Of a stretch of 64,000 bases of DNA, positions 11,092 through 47,423 are shown piece after piece. The position numbers and the translations under genes are program-made. A model generated the notes under the pieces. That model saw nothing but the letters and a program-made list of their open reading frames with translations. It searched no databases and was not told where the DNA came from. Positions within the stretch are counted from its first letter, which is position 1. The number at the start of each line of letters is the position of its first letter. The stretch spans positions 4,333,135-4,397,134 of the forward strand of contig NC_030385.2 of NCBI RefSeq assembly GCF_001625215.2, in the 5' to 3' direction. Source of the DNA: Daucus carota subsp. sativus (lineage: Eukaryota > Streptophyta > Magnoliopsida > Apiales > Apiaceae).

Positions 11092-13600
11092 AATAACTTT
11101 TCTTTCATAATTTTTACTTCTTTCTCAAAACTTTAATCACTTAGAGCAAATCCGACATCATATTTTATTATTTTTATTAAGCATCCACTAAGACATTTTT
11201 AGACTTCCTCTTACAAGAGAAACACTTATTTTAAAGTCAATCAAACCGCTCCTTGGGGAAATCAATCAAACGGCTGCTTGGGGAAATCATTCGAGCCTAT
11301 CAAACTTTTTCGGAGTTTAAAATTAAAGTTTGTCCTCTAAGTTCTAACTCCTCCAAACTTTTTAATCAAGTTTGAGCCGGACATTGCAGTGTCAGCTCGG
11401 CTTGGCTGACTGATTACGCCAAATGCATCATAATTTCCATATTCCTGTTAAACGCATTGTCATTTCAATTTTCTTGCCATCTTTTTAATGATTCAACTTT
11501 ATCCCAAAATTTCCATTTGCATCAAAATAAAGTTTTTGTTCAGCAGTTTAACAGCGAATCAAAATAAGAGGGGATCAGACTGACGTGCAAATTTTTGTTC
11601 AGCAGTGAACAGTTAATAACTGAGCCTCTGATTAAATGATATAATCATCATCATTTCCCACCATCAAACTTCTAACCAAAACTATATTAAAACATTATTA
11701 TTAGAAAACGATAATAAAAAAAAAAAAAGTTTGAATAAGAACAAACTATAAAGAAAAAAAAAGAGGGGCAGTATCAGTTCTCCAAGGTGAGTTTAGCATC
11801 ACAGTAAATCAGATGCAAATTACCCATTTGTCAATACATGTGTTCATCATCTACCCAGAAATTCAAATTTTCAATTACAAAATAAAATCAACAAAGCAAA
11901 TTAAAAATTAAAATCAATGTGAGAAAGAAAAAAAGAGATGAAGCGATCAGATCCTGTCGGGATTCATTGTTTCACATCAAAGATTATCAGTGGATTGACA
12001 GACCAATGAATTCTATCGTCATTTCGCGAATATATAAAAGCGTGTTTATAGATAAAATTCAAATATTGATGCTGCAGAGACGAAACAGAAGATGTTGAGA
12101 GAAACACAGAGAAGGCAAGTATTTATATACACTACTCAAACCCTAATCTGATACAGCTAAACCCACGACTTAAAGTGGGCCGGGCCTGAATTTTGTCATT
12201 GCAGTCCAGAACAAGTAGGAGAAGACTTCGAGCCTGTGGTCAAGTGTCAAGGCAGCAAGAGGCAAACTTCGGGTCAATTCGATTATATAATTAAAATTTT
12301 ATATTTGTGTAATAAGTTAACATTTTCAATTTTTTTTAATAAGTTAAGAATTAATTTAAACTACATATAAGTACAAAATGAATTTAAATTAAGAAATTGT
12401 TAGAATGTATTTTCTGAATAACTGATTTTGTTTTTTCAGATTTTTTGATAAAAATAACATTATCATTTAAATGAATATAACAAATCAAATTCTTTTTTTA
12501 TTATCATTATGATCATATTATAAATCATTTATAATATAAAATTATCTAGAAAAATTTAATTTAAACAAATTAAACTGTCACTTGTTAAATTTTAAATAAT
12601 TTATGTAGGCTCTATCCGTGATTATTAAATATAAAAATATATGTAAAAATAGCAGAATTGCTTCGTTTGTAAAGCAACTTGAGAGAGATTAGCACATGTT
12701 CTAGTTACTTGATCAATTTAATTACTAAGAGTTATTAATTATGTCATTATGTTTCGATCCCGTACTTGCTAGTCCCGCTAATAACAAACACCGTGCACTT
12801 GCGGATATTAATTTAAAACGCATACTTATATTATGAGAAAGATGATCAAGTTTTATCACCGTAGAGGTTGGATTAGAATTAGGGTTAGAGATAGACCTAT
12901 AAAGGAACTATGGCTTTTATGGATGTGACGACTTTAAAGCTTAAAGGTTTCCTTCCTTAGTGTTCTCTCTTTTCTTATTATTTCTATTATGTCTTTTTTA
13001 TTGCTTTAGTTGTTTATTTATTAGCGAGCAGTGTATTTTAGGGCTTAAGGAGAAGTCATGTTTGCACTATGATCTTGGCATGATTTCACGGTGATTTGAT
13101 TGATTGGTTAATTCTTATTAATATGTTTTAATATTGATTTGTGTAATCGGCCGATACCATGAATTAAATCTTTGTGAATAGAAGTATGTTGAGAGATATA
13201 CTACTAGAGGCACGTATACAATTAGCAGAATTGAATTTGAGTGTGAGAGCATTATTGAATTTTTGAGAGCGTTAATACTAGAGAGAGGTTAACATTGCTA
13301 TAATTACATGATTAATTGGATTACTAAAAGTGATTATTTGTGTAATCATGTTTTGAGAGTGTTGATGCTTCGGAAATATTAACATACTCTTGTTACTTGA
13401 CCACTTTAATTGTTTTAACTTAGAAGTCAATTATTGTGTAAGCATGATGGACCTGATTGCCCTAGATCTTTTATATATTATTTTAGTGTCTTAATAATTA
13501 GTGTTTGTTTAGTTATATTAGTTAGTTAATTATATCGTCTATAATTGTTTTAATCGGGAAACAATTGTCTGTAACCGAATCAAAATTGATAGTATTTGTC
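11092..13600. other. AT-rich intergenic DNA
   Basis: No supported gene or RNA. The word CCGTGC(A/G)CTTGCGG occurs at about 12789 and 13649, suggesting old related repeat fragments on the approach to the gypsy fossil. Confidence 0.4.
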
Positions 13601-14639: not shown

Positions 14640-17600
14640 ATGGGTGTGGATTACTACAACATCCTCAAAGTGAATCGCAATGCCACCGTGGATGACCTCA
14701 AGAAAGCTTACCGCCGACTAGCAATGATCTGGCACCCCGACAAGAACCCCACCCATCAGCGCACCGAAGCCGAGGCCAAATTCAAGAACATCTCCGAAGC
14801 TTACGATGTTCTCAGTGACCCCCAGAAGCGTCAGATCTATGATCTTTACGGTGAAGAGGCCTTGAAATCTGGGCAGGTGCCCCCTCCTCCTCCGGCGAGC
14901 AGGGTGGGCCATCCGGGGTCTTATGCGAATAATTACTACCACCAGAAGCACCCCAATCCTTCTTTTAGGTTTAATCCGAGGAATGCGGAAGATATTTATG
15001 CTGAAATGTTTTCTGGGTCGGAGGGTGGGGCTAGTGGGTCTGGTGGGGGGAGGAGTAGAGCGTATAATGATGGGTTTTTCAGGGGTTCGGAGACGGAGTT
15101 TGGGAATTCGAGTGGGGGGTCTGGAGGAGCTCAGAGGAAAGCTGCTGCTGTTGAGAATGTGTTGCCGTGTAGCTTGGAGGATCTTTATAAGGGGGCTAAG
15201 AAGAAGATGAAGATTTCGCGGACTATTGTTGATGCTTCTAGGTATGGTTTCAAGATTTGGGATTTTTATTGTTTGATATGTGGATTTTGTTTCAATTATT
15301 TCTTAGGGTTTTATATCTTGTGCAGTACCGTTCCATTGGAATTAAATGATAAATGTATCTCTGAATTTAGATGTTTGTTGATGTTTGGGATGATGTGTGT
15401 AAATGTATGCGAATTGCCCCAATGCTGGTGTTATCGGTATGCTATTCTGTTATTATGGTTTAGATAGCGTCACCGGGAATCTGAGTTTTTCTCTTATCTT
15501 ATAAGGAGTTTTTGTGTTTTTGTGTTATAATGCTGGTGTTTTTGATATGTGGATTTTGTTTCAATTTACTCTTAGGGTTTTATATCTTTTGCAGTACCGT
15601 TCTATTTGAATTTAAATGATAGATGTATCTCTGAATTTAGATGTTTTTTTGATGTTTGGGATGATGTGTGTCAATGTATGGCAATCACCTCAATGCTGGT
15701 GATATCGGTATGCTATCCTGTTATTATGGTTTAGATAGCGTCACCGGGAATCTGAGTTTTTTTCTTATCTCATAAGGAGTTTTTGTGTTGGTTGATAAGA
15801 GAGGCAACGCGGAGTCGTACACGTGTATGGAAATGCTAATGATATCGGGATGCTATCCTGTCATTAGGGTTTAGATAGCGTCACCTCGAATCTGAGATTT
15901 TATTTCTTATCTCATAAGGAGTTTTTGTGTTGGTTGATAAGAGAGGCAACGCGGAGTTGTACAAGTGTATGGCAATGCTAATGATATCGGGATGCTATCC
16001 CATCATTAGGGTTTAAATAGCGTCACCGCGAATCTGAGATTTTCTTTCTTATCTCATAAGGAGTTTTTGTGTTGGTTGATAAGAGAGGCAACGCAGAGTT
16101 GTACAAGTGTATGGCAATGCTAATCATATCGGGATGCTGTCCCGTCATTAGGGTTTAGATGGCGTCACCGCGAATCTGAGATTTCTTTCTTATCTCATAA
16201 GGAGTTTTTGTGTTGGTTGATAAGAGAGGCAACGCGGAGTTGTACAAGTGTATGGCAATGCTAATCGTATCAGGATGCTATACCGTCATTAGGGTTTAGA
16301 TAGCGTCACCGCGAATCTGAGATTTTCTTTTTTATCTCATAAGGAGTTTTTGGTTGGTTAATAAGAGAGGCAATGCGGAGTTGTTTATAATCTTCTTTGT
16401 TTTTACATACCTCCATATGCCCATCATTAATGACTGTTTTCTTCGCTGCTACGCTTTTGCATGATTCTATTCCATTCAGCTTACATGTGGTTTGAATCCC
16501 ATTTGTTAAAGATCCTTGAAACAAGCTCTGCTGCTTTATAATAACTTAATTTAATGGCTAATATGATGTTCAAGTTTTTTTTGGTAAAGCTCTAATATTC
16601 TAAAAAAGTCCACATACGCCGTATAAATGCCAAAGTTGGCAATTTCTTAGAATATATTTTCACCCTGTAGGCATGCTAGTAAAAGTATTTAATGAAACGT
16701 TGATAAATGAAACAGTATAGCTGTATTAGGTGACTTTCTTATCAGTGAAAAGATGCCGTATTCCAATTGGAACGCTGTTTCTCTAATTTTGTAGTCACCA
16801 TATTCTTCTCGCTCTTTTCTCTTTCATAATGTTGTTTCCCTTGGTAACTAACATTGCCATTTGCTCATGCCCTTATATGGATTTTTGTTTCTTTGGCCCT
16901 GGCTCCTCCAAAATCTCCTTGTCATTTGATTCCGATTGTAACTGTGATTTCAAAGCTTTTTAGAAGACTATAGCTGATTATCTGTGCACCTTATATGCTG
17001 AATATATGCTAAAAAAGTTTCATCAAATGTCATTTTTAAGTTTATTACACATCTTTTATTGATATATTACTCGTCTTTAGTGTATTTCGTGATTTAATTC
17101 AGCAGTGTCTGTGTGCCCCCCACCCCCTCTCCATCGCGCCTCTTTACTAATAAAACATCCTTATGATTACTTTGTTTACTGGAGTATATAGCAGATTTTA
17201 ATATCTGCATCTTAAAGTAAGTGTATGTACTGCAGAGTCCAGTTCCTGCTAGTTGTAAGATTAAAAGTTCCTTCTCTTCATAAGCTGATTATTTACTTAT
17301 ACTAACATAGCTAATGAAGAAGCTTGCCCATTGTTTTTTTAAATGCAGGCTCTTATATGTATATATATAGAATTCCCTGGATTTGTAAAGGTGTACATGC
17401 ATTAAAGTTTTAGGAATGCTAACATTTCTCAAGTGAAGCTCCTAATTTTAAGAGTAAACACCCTTTATAGTGTCTTGCTAATTGTCCAGATGACTTCAGT
17501 TCATCTTATCACCAATAAGAATAGAATATTAGCTACATGTTCATAACTTTTCAAGTTATTGGTTTGTCATTGTTATCTTGGAACAACACATGTTCAGTCC

Positions 17601-45222: not shown

Positions 45223-45590
45223 ACACAAACTTTGTTTAGCAGGTGTTGGAGTAGTACCTATGACAAAGGGCATGGCTCTGACTCCTCTGTAATTTGGCTC
45301 TTCTTTGGTGCTAGTAGCTTTATCATTTCCATTCATTGTTGCCATGATATCTTCTCTTAGTTTCCTCTCACTCTTGATGTGTTTAGTTTGTGAGATGTTC
45401 TTGGCAAAACAAGTGAGCAGAGATATTTATATATAGATGGGAAGGTCCAAAAAGTAAGACGACTTCTTCTTTGCTAGTGCAACATACAACAGTCATCATG
45501 GTGGGATCGTTCCCAACTACAGATATTTCTTTCTGTTTCCAAGTTTTGATTAACTCACAAATTTATTATTGAAGAAATCTCCGATATATA

Positions 45591-45929
45591 GAAGGTTACT
45601 CCAGAACTTCTTAAAATGAGAACCGTGAGAACTTCCTTAATTTATCATATTTTGACTAATCTAAACATCAAACTAGTGGGTACCCAATATAAAAAGTGTA
45701 TATAAAACTAGTCTCTCCGTAACTAGTCAAAAAAAAAATTCAAAAAAAAAATCCACTGCCATGTCATCAGTGTTTTTTTTTTTTTCCCGGCTAGCTAGAT
45801 GGAGACCTTAATTATATAATTCTTTGTGAAGGTGCCCCTGACGGGGCCCTTCAAATGAATGAGATATTGATAAATTAGAAAAGTTCTCACGGTTCTCATT
45901 TTAAGAAAGTTCTCATTTGAGCAAGTGCC
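45591..45929. mobile_element. TA-microsatellite-bounded element 1
   Basis: It follows ATATATA and begins GAAGGTTACTCCAGAACTT. It ends TTTGAGCAAGTGCC just before a (TA)n run. The inner words AAAATGAGAACCGTGAGAAC on the left and GTTCTCACGGTTCTCATTTT on the right are perfect inverted repeats. It has no coding capacity. The outer TACTCCA and TGCTCAAAT words are shared with elements 2 and 3. Confidence 0.75.
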
Positions 45930-45943
45930 TATATATATATATA

Positions 45944-46518
45944 GGGGCTTACTCCACTAGAAACTAAATTAGCCTAGAAACTAGAAACTAGTCTCTGGCT
46001 AGTTTTTCATCATCCTTCTTAACTACAAAAATCACTTATTTTAATATCAAAAATCACTGATTTATATATGCAAAATCTGACAAATATAGATATATAAATA
46101 CACATATATACATCGTATATCACCATCATGTTCAATCATACTACATTGATGAAACTCTTGGTATCACTATCAACCTCTTTCGCTACTGCCCGCTTCACTT
46201 ACAACCATGATTTGCCTATCGCCGTTTGTCATCATAACTTGCCACTACTAATGACTATTTACCATGACCACACACCTTATCCCGTCATTTGCTACCATCA
46301 TAGACCTTCTACAACTATAATTGATCATCAATAATCGACCACCAATGTCAATCATAAATAAATTTCCTCAATTATTAAAAATAAAAATACTGATGAATAT
46401 ACTGTATAAAATAGTGATTAAGAACATAGAAATTAGTGATTTCACTAGTTATAAACAGTGATTCAAGGAGTGGTTTCTAGTTTCTAAAATAAGAGTGGTT
46501 TCTATTTGATCACTTGCC
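45944..46518. mobile_element. TA-microsatellite-bounded element 2
   Basis: It begins GGGGCTTACTCCACTAGAAAC right after a (TA)n run and ends GTTTCTATTTGATCACTTGCC right before another. The inner words TAGAAAC/GTTTCTA pair as inverted repeats. The interior has several AAATCACT/AGTGATT words and a CAC/CAT-rich stretch without a supported gene. Confidence 0.75.
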
Positions 46519-46542
46519 TATATATATATATATATATATATA

Positions 46543-47371
46543 GGGTCCTACTCCAGTACAAACCCATTATGATACAAACATACAAACCAGTGATTATGAT
46601 AATAATATTTAGTGATTAGAGTGTTTCTAAATTCTAACTACCCCATCTTCACCAATTCCACCTCCACCTCCGCCTTCTTCAGCTTCGCTTCCGCCGTCAT
46701 CTCTGTCATCACCACCTCCACCTCCATGCCGCCCACCCACTCCATACCCACCACCTCCATGTCCACCTCCATTATTTCTATCACCATCAAATCCACTCCC
46801 ACCTCCATCGTCCCCTCCAGCCTCACTTTCGTCACCACCAGCCTCACCTCCGTCGCCTGAAAACATAGCCACATCCCGTTATCACTATCACCAGGTTCTG
46901 TTATGTACCCGTTGTTTCACCGATTTCTAAAGTGATAATTACTAATTTATAAAGTACAAATCACTAATTTGCAAAGTGAAAATCACTAAAGTATATAGCA
47001 GGAGGTGTAAACAGCGGACTTGTGGAGACACGATGGTGGGTGAATTCGTCTCTGCCTCTGCGACTACCATTACACGACTACTGTTGACAGCATCACCACT
47101 AGCATCATCAAAAATTGAAAGCACCACAACTTCATCACTAAATTATATCTATATGTGTGTATCTATCCCAATGGGAACAAAATTTAGTTATGGCAAATAT
47201 ATTGATTTACAGCGCGGCAAATTGAGAGAAAGGCGGAGGTGAGAGAGACGAGGAGAGGGAGAGAGTAGATCTGAGTAAAGAAAGAAAGAATAGACTACTG
47301 TGTATGAGTTCTGTTATTTTTATATATGGTTTGTAGTTTGTATTTTAAGATTGGTTTGTATTTGAGCACTC

Positions 47372-47373
<2 letters not shown>
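46543..47373. mobile_element. TA-microsatellite-bounded element 3
   Basis: It begins GGGTCCTACTCCAGTACAAACC and ends GGTTTGTATTTGAGCACTCCC. TACAAACC/GGTTTGTA pair as inverted repeats. AAATCACT words recur at 46595-46990. A Gly-codon-rich stretch at 46627-46874 (read on the minus strand) is simple-sequence in nature and is not called a gene. It is flanked by (TA)n on both sides. Confidence 0.75.

Positions 47374-47423
<50 letters not shown>
47374..47423. repeat. (TA)n microsatellite, about 24 units
   Basis: An uninterrupted TA run that bounds the third element. Shorter runs of the same repeat lie at 45930-45942 and 46519-46542 between the elements. Confidence 0.95.

Follow-up and report, generated by a model that had tools for sequence, protein, structure and literature searches.

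In a window of 64,000 bp of the carrot genome (C5:4333135-4397134), we found three TA-separated elements, E1, E2 and E3, placed end to end at positions 45594-47373 without evident genes. These are short multicopy non-coding elements with TIRs and microsatellite borders, i.e., microsatellite-inserted MITEs (MiMs, SaTars or mMITEs). With a probability of about 0.82, we consider E1-E3 to be non-autonomous class II MITEs that were inserted serially in a TA microsatellite, and the short words repeated near their ends (iterons) to be docking sites for a transposase acting in trans. The array itself is ordinary, since MiMs have been described in carrot and non-nested arrays in other plants; it is the end architecture that merits attention.

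The elements were delimited from the sequence and the ends, and all three are MITE-like and lie on the plus strand. E1 (45594-45929, 336 bp, iteron GAGAAC) shares a (TA)7 border (45930-45943) with E2 (45944-46518, 575 bp, iteron TAGAAAC), which in turn shares a (TA)12 border (46519-46542) with E3 (46543-47373, 831 bp, iteron TACAAAC); both borders were located in the sequence by pattern scan. The right border of E3 is an AT/TA microsatellite at 47374-47423 (TA run 47375-47422; pattern scan and Tandem Repeats Finder), and the left border of E1 consists of no more than a few degraded TA units (gATATATAgaa). Thus, the three units with TA-run borders recognized in the initial annotation were confirmed. 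The outer words, which the same annotation took to be common to all three units, are present at five of the ends, and the left end of E1 is damaged. By pattern scan, the only such ends in the whole 64 kb are five in the array, the damaged E1 end being unmatched. The outer and inner words together form one imperfect inverted repeat of ~21 bp, for example, GGGTCCTACTCCAATACAAAC on the left and GGGGAGTGCTCAAATACAAAC (reverse complement) on the right. Helitrons lack TIRs and have a CTRR 3' end with a hairpin; the array elements have an imperfect TIR, matched iterons left and right and a CC terminus before the repeat, and were accordingly not classified as Helitrons. Judged from size and sequence, E1-E3 probably contain no genes. 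The halves of E1 pair as inverted repeats at 66-69% in many copies of the family, and the interior of E3 is in part pyrimidine-rich on the plus strand. Elsewhere in the window, there are a cluster of three C/D box snoRNAs (snoR14, snoZ101 and snoZ122; 11568-12027, minus strand) and tandem repeats with 271-bp and 142/283-bp units and 91-93% matches (15272-16384).

An inner word that differs among the elements and is matched between the two ends of each had been noticed earlier. The match holds, and the word is not single but a repeated iteron (TAGAAAC, TACAAAC or GAGAAC), typically present three times per end at ~15, 32 and 39 bp. In E2, TAGAAAC is found at offsets 15, 32 and 39 on the left (45958-45988, plus strand) and at 15, 33 and 40 from the right end (46473-46504, minus strand). 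The corresponding offsets of TACAAAC in E3 are 15, 31 and 39 (46557-46587, plus strand) and 14, 32 and 39 (47329-47360, minus strand). The left end of E1 in the window has two intact GAGAAC iterons at offsets 25 and 34 (45618-45632, plus strand), the outer one being damaged, and the right end has three, at offsets 16, 33 and 42 (45883-45914, minus strand); in most other E1 copies, the left offsets are 14, 30 and 39, the outer iteron included. These iteron counts (3 per end in E2 and E3, and 2 + 3 in E1) were matched by none of 500 dinucleotide shuffles.

The same arrangement was found in elements across the genome. Left and right ends were paired by their outer motifs, without using the inner words, which produced 101 end pairs; a filter that considered flank, left motif and word removed 21 of these, among them some that look genuine (L004_1510, L027_319 and L109_1398). 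Among the 80 pairs kept, iteron offsets cluster at 13-17, 29-34 and 37-42, the outliers being the window E1 and one mis-paired row. In the interior, farther than 60 bp from either end, 64/80 elements lack their own word and 12/80 have it once; it is commoner only in four mis-paired rows. At least 8 of the 80 are mis-pairings or inner hits (L014_266, L014_984, L027_1114, L034_1967, L037_1504, L044_1430, L083_51 and L088_51); none of these eight has exact words at both ends, so they do not enter the following comparison. Exact words are present at both ends in 62 elements, and in 60 of them the left and right words are the same (33 TACAAAC, 14 TAGAAAC and 13 TGAGAAC), although the copies are related and such counts overstate the evidence: at 70% identity, most of the elements belong to four families, and independent events are therefore few. 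The two discordant elements, with a different word at each end, are L002_2177 and L022_1504. It should be noted that the pairing relied on outer motifs, and that it thereby predetermined some of the difference seen between left and right outer parts. Two diverged copies of the E2 family, aligned by eye, have C for G at 4/5 (L007 2164-2733) and 2/5 (L008 2139-2723) alignable iterons, and a third (L115, C9) mostly retains G. Given this mixed state, the concerted switch of the word is a trend, clearest between families. Iterons in microsatellite-targeting MITEs are not described in the titles or abstract openings of the literature surveyed. L104 1820-2279, which is bordered by TA and has several TTACAAAC words at its end, apparently represents an additional family.

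A second set of repeated words lies further inside. The interspersed AAATCACT words of E2 and E3 noted previously are real, and form boxes exactly 22 bp apart within each group. Counting AATCACT on either strand, there are 5 boxes in E2 and 4 in E3, and none of 500 shuffles reached either count; E1 has no AATCACT boxes. In E2, the left boxes (46030-46058, plus strand) are 22 bp apart, the region 46019-46075 having a 22-bp period according to Tandem Repeats Finder; the three right boxes (46413-46463, minus strand) have the same spacing in reverse orientation. E3, in which a 22-bp period was likewise detected, has two left boxes in reverse orientation (46589-46617, minus strand) and two exact central boxes (46959-46987, plus strand) inside a 22-bp tandem array (46923-46989), the spacing in both pairs being 22 bp. 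Of the 131 ATCACT/AGTGAT spacings below 60 bp, 113 measure exactly 22 bp, with 8 at 21 bp and 4 at 23 bp, in a sample of related copies with a few overlapping rows. Conservation of the boxes above their surroundings is clear in E2, where the five boxes are 93% identical to two diverged copies versus 65% for the remaining interior (2/5000 random placements as good), a figure that takes in the fifth box, at offset 514, where both diverged copies have changes. It is borderline in E3 (93% versus 84% against 21 other copies; 53/1000 random placements as good).

A search of the genome (441,086,747 bases, 11 contigs) showed that each element has its own family. For E1, there are ~40 near-full-length matches beyond the window, 90-96% identical (40 scored of 198 candidates); for E2, another 39 places among those scored, with identities of 87-99% (first-look candidates genome-wide, 1782); and for E3, 24 other near-full-length places, the best 85% identical by BLAST (40 scored of 770 candidates). 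Since the three families occur separately, at many sites and with different neighbors, the units are not confined to one fixed composite, in agreement with the initial annotation. Three E1-type copies spaced by ~990 bp at C2:58897814-58900143 suggest a tandem-duplicated composite at that place. Compared to other fetched copies, with gaps ignored, the window E1 has maximum and median identities of 96.7% and 95.4%, E2 of 99.1% and 88.0%, and E3 of 89.0% and 85.7%; from these values, E2 could be the latest arrival. No paralogous empty site was detectable genome-wide: the two flanks from the window, joined and compared with the genome, matched nothing but themselves, and insertion at this particular locus is thus presumed.

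The left-end pattern TATAGGGNCYTACTCCA has 226 exact matches in the genome versus 0 for the backward-read control, which excludes chance. Without the TA requirement, the pattern GGKCYTAYTCCANTASAAAC has 370 exact matches (reversed control, 0), and the base six positions upstream of its start is A/T in 360 and G/C in 10, compared to ~120/370 G/C expected by chance at the window GC of ~0.33. Among the 100 A/T cases listed (out of 360), 80 start with ATATA. Five of the 10 G/C cases have (GT)n within the outer 25 bases and the remaining ones have short or no runs, so that a few copies lie outside clear microsatellites. A dinucleotide repeat was present at both borders in 20/20 E1 places, 7/7 E2 loci (of 39 E2 places) and 25/25 near-full-length E3 loci, the window included, as expected of the TA-repeat-targeting family proposed earlier. 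The partial E3 matches L064-L068 were left out of this border count, and at least L067 is not in a TA repeat; L049 has its left end truncated into a neighboring element. At L067 (C1:52419235), an E3-type left part lies outside a TA repeat, and its two flanks resemble, by eye, a pair of inverted repeats. No 8-10 bp target-site duplication was seen by eye in any of 8 non-TATA copies with both ends placeable (14 fetched); nearly all other copies lie in a dinucleotide repeat, where a duplication is not visible.

Arrays are common outside the window as well. At 13 of 35 focal E2/E3 loci, another end of the array type lies across the flanking microsatellite, in one case on both sides. On inspection by eye, this count has L046 as a doubtful case, misses at least two (L008 right and L049 left) and scores one tandem pair twice (L040/L042); the window itself is included (L039). 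The window array and these loci are non-nested arrays of different families joined by microsatellites. Linked or fused elements are described for guayule SaTars at 19-47% per family (PMC5907723), and 46.1% of full-length pineapple Ac-mMITEs are reported as clustered (PMC8449440). The earlier proposal of repeated insertion into the border left by the previous element fits the 13/35 loci; the head-to-tail order proposed with it holds in the window, but is not a rule, as elsewhere head-to-head and tail-to-tail orientations occur alongside it.

The preference for TA could also arise after insertion, if repeats were made or enlarged at the borders by slippage or repair stutter, a rather unlikely account of the data that is nonetheless compatible with serial insertion. 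Consistent with it, in 6 of 20 fetched E1 places (L069-L088) the left end is separated from the TA run directly by (GA)3 or longer, compared to 0/20 with such a run directly at the right end; other copies end with GAGGGTTAC at the left, so that the (GA)n run may have grown out of the element's own end. PMC5907723 cites a proposal of growth after insertion for maize TAFT elements. Conversely, flanking (GT)n and compound microsatellites that are absent from the element, along with the array habit, favor repeats that existed before insertion. The same compound microsatellites can be read differently. In the model proposed for guayule SaTars (PMC5907723), circular copies with microsatellite filler recombine into genomic microsatellites, with no need for a duplication or for target choice by a transposase. 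The lack of a duplication in the eight copies with both ends placed, and copies in (GT)n or in compound microsatellites that differ by side (e.g., L098, with (CG)n(GT)n on the left and (TA)n on the right), would be expected under recombinational spread. However, the elements stop sharply where the repeat begins, PMC5907723 cites empty sites in maize that have no more than 6-8 bp of TA, and the matched iterons imply selection by an end-recognizing protein, which recombination alone does not explain; we regard this route as unlikely. Serial insertion by a transposase, with TA probably chosen at integration rather than grown later, is the reading we prefer.

The nature of that transposase was approached through the superfamily. 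Given the ends that read TAGGG or TAGG and the multiple subterminal motifs, which we take to resemble those of maize Ac, the elements might be of hAT rather than Mutator type. We consider this improbable: among the 100 left ends listed, only one has any of the 150 scored hAT domains (525 candidates) within 15 kb, and that end belongs to an unrelated 329-bp element (L033); the eight copies inspected by eye have no 8-bp duplication; and the published TA-targeting relatives are assigned to Mutator. This placement was based on 9-10 bp duplications and on autonomous partners in some species (PMC8227079, PMC4486113, PMC5907723, PMC8449440). By likeness to these carrot, Medicago, guayule and pineapple relatives, E1-E3 are probably Mutator-like (MULE), an assignment that is inferred only, as neither a target-site duplication nor an autonomous partner was found.

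The autonomous, transposase-encoding copy envisaged in the initial annotation was looked for in a partial search and not found: among the 150 MULE candidates scored of 813 and the listed ends, no autonomous element with array-type ends was detected. Comparing MULE domains to 100 listed ends out of the 226 TATA left ends and to the E1, E2 and E3 lists, only two ends lie within 15 kb, both belonging to E1 copies. These copies, at C2:31955507 and C7:12779995, have a MULE domain at a distance of 13,688 and 13,674 bp, respectively, but in an arrangement that is mirrored with respect to E1; the proximity is perhaps a coincidence. For 100 listed ends out of the 360 A/T left ends, the 10 G/C ends and 40 places assigned to a long left-end family, two lie within 40 kb of a MULE domain, at 7.6 and 24.0 kb. 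The 7.6-kb neighbor was rejected as a partner, being short, of the E2 type and close to a FAR1-like reading frame; also rejected were the long left-end family, which runs into gag-like sequence, and the left end L016, which has a helicase-like frame nearby (all three named by resemblance). A Pfam search with four peptides yielded nothing above the cut-off. Five MULEs with long frames have palindrome-rich 2.2-kb flanks and ends unlike the array type, their right ends not being located. Four of the five MULEs with fetched flanks begin with GGGTCC(T/A)G(T/G)TCC, which bears some likeness to the left end GGGTCCTACTCC, and have no iterons in the part seen; this likeness, spotted post hoc, might at most be a weak lead. 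One of them, a long-frame MULE in L109 (C5:13065500-13067700, from ~1398 onwards) has a left end, GGGTCCTGTTCCC, that abuts a TA run beside an array-type element.

Among known systems, the comparison with rice Micron elements made in the initial annotation was right in kind, with short elements and a TA-repeat target (Akagi 2001; a likeness of description), but carrot MiMs, guayule SaTars and pineapple mMITEs are closer. Carrot MiMs, from the same species, are described as short and TA-flanked with poorly conserved TIRs, and comprise 15 families and 2156 copies, three families having related putative autonomous Mutator elements (PMC8227079). The sections of PMC8227079 drawn on here mention neither iterons nor 22-bp boxes. 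SaTars of guayule and rice resemble the carrot array in forming non-nested arrays of unrelated, microsatellite-joined elements with imperfect TIRs; members of 11/15 guayule families are reported to have 10-bp duplications, whereas none were found in the eight carrot copies with both ends placed, and some rice families are likewise reported without duplications (PMC5907723). MuTAnT of Medicago shares the TA microsatellites and GGGG ends (tirMask GGGGTTTGCTAGAACA, compare E2 GGGGCTTACTCCACTAGAAAC); unlike the array elements, it is described as a foldback element with long TIRs, a known autonomous mudrA-like copy and 9-bp duplications (PMC4486113). Pineapple Ac-mMITEs are similar in TA preference, clustering and the failure to find an autonomous element in either system, and differ in that 1435 copies with 9/10-bp duplications are known (PMC8449440).

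Taken as serially inserted MITEs, the three elements, with unlike interiors and one end-type, would have entered the TA microsatellite successively, each insertion leaving a TA repeat on both sides as a possible target for the next; the order of arrival can only be inferred. The outer 21-bp inverted repeat would be the end at which cleavage and joining take place, and the iterons ~15, 32 and 39 bp in would be docking sites for a transposase supplied in trans, presumably of the DDE type. The same word would be required at both ends, and families with different words would then probably use different transposase variants. The ATCACT boxes, at their 22-bp spacing, may be a second set of binding sites, recognized perhaps by a host protein or an accessory factor.

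A bolder reading is that the ends carry a family-specific address code, in which one word is present three times per end at fixed offsets, is the same at both ends and is switched in concert, with a helically phased array of 22-bp boxes inside. We put this forward tentatively, as a possibility with somewhat less than even odds. How MITEs find TA repeats, and what mobilizes them, are called unclear in the carrot study (PMC8227079). An iteron word with fixed geometry predicts binding sites and may sort families by transposase. If the address code is true, microsatellite-targeting elements would have one synaptic architecture in common with an interchangeable DNA-binding specificity, and the word would predict which transposase mobilizes which family.
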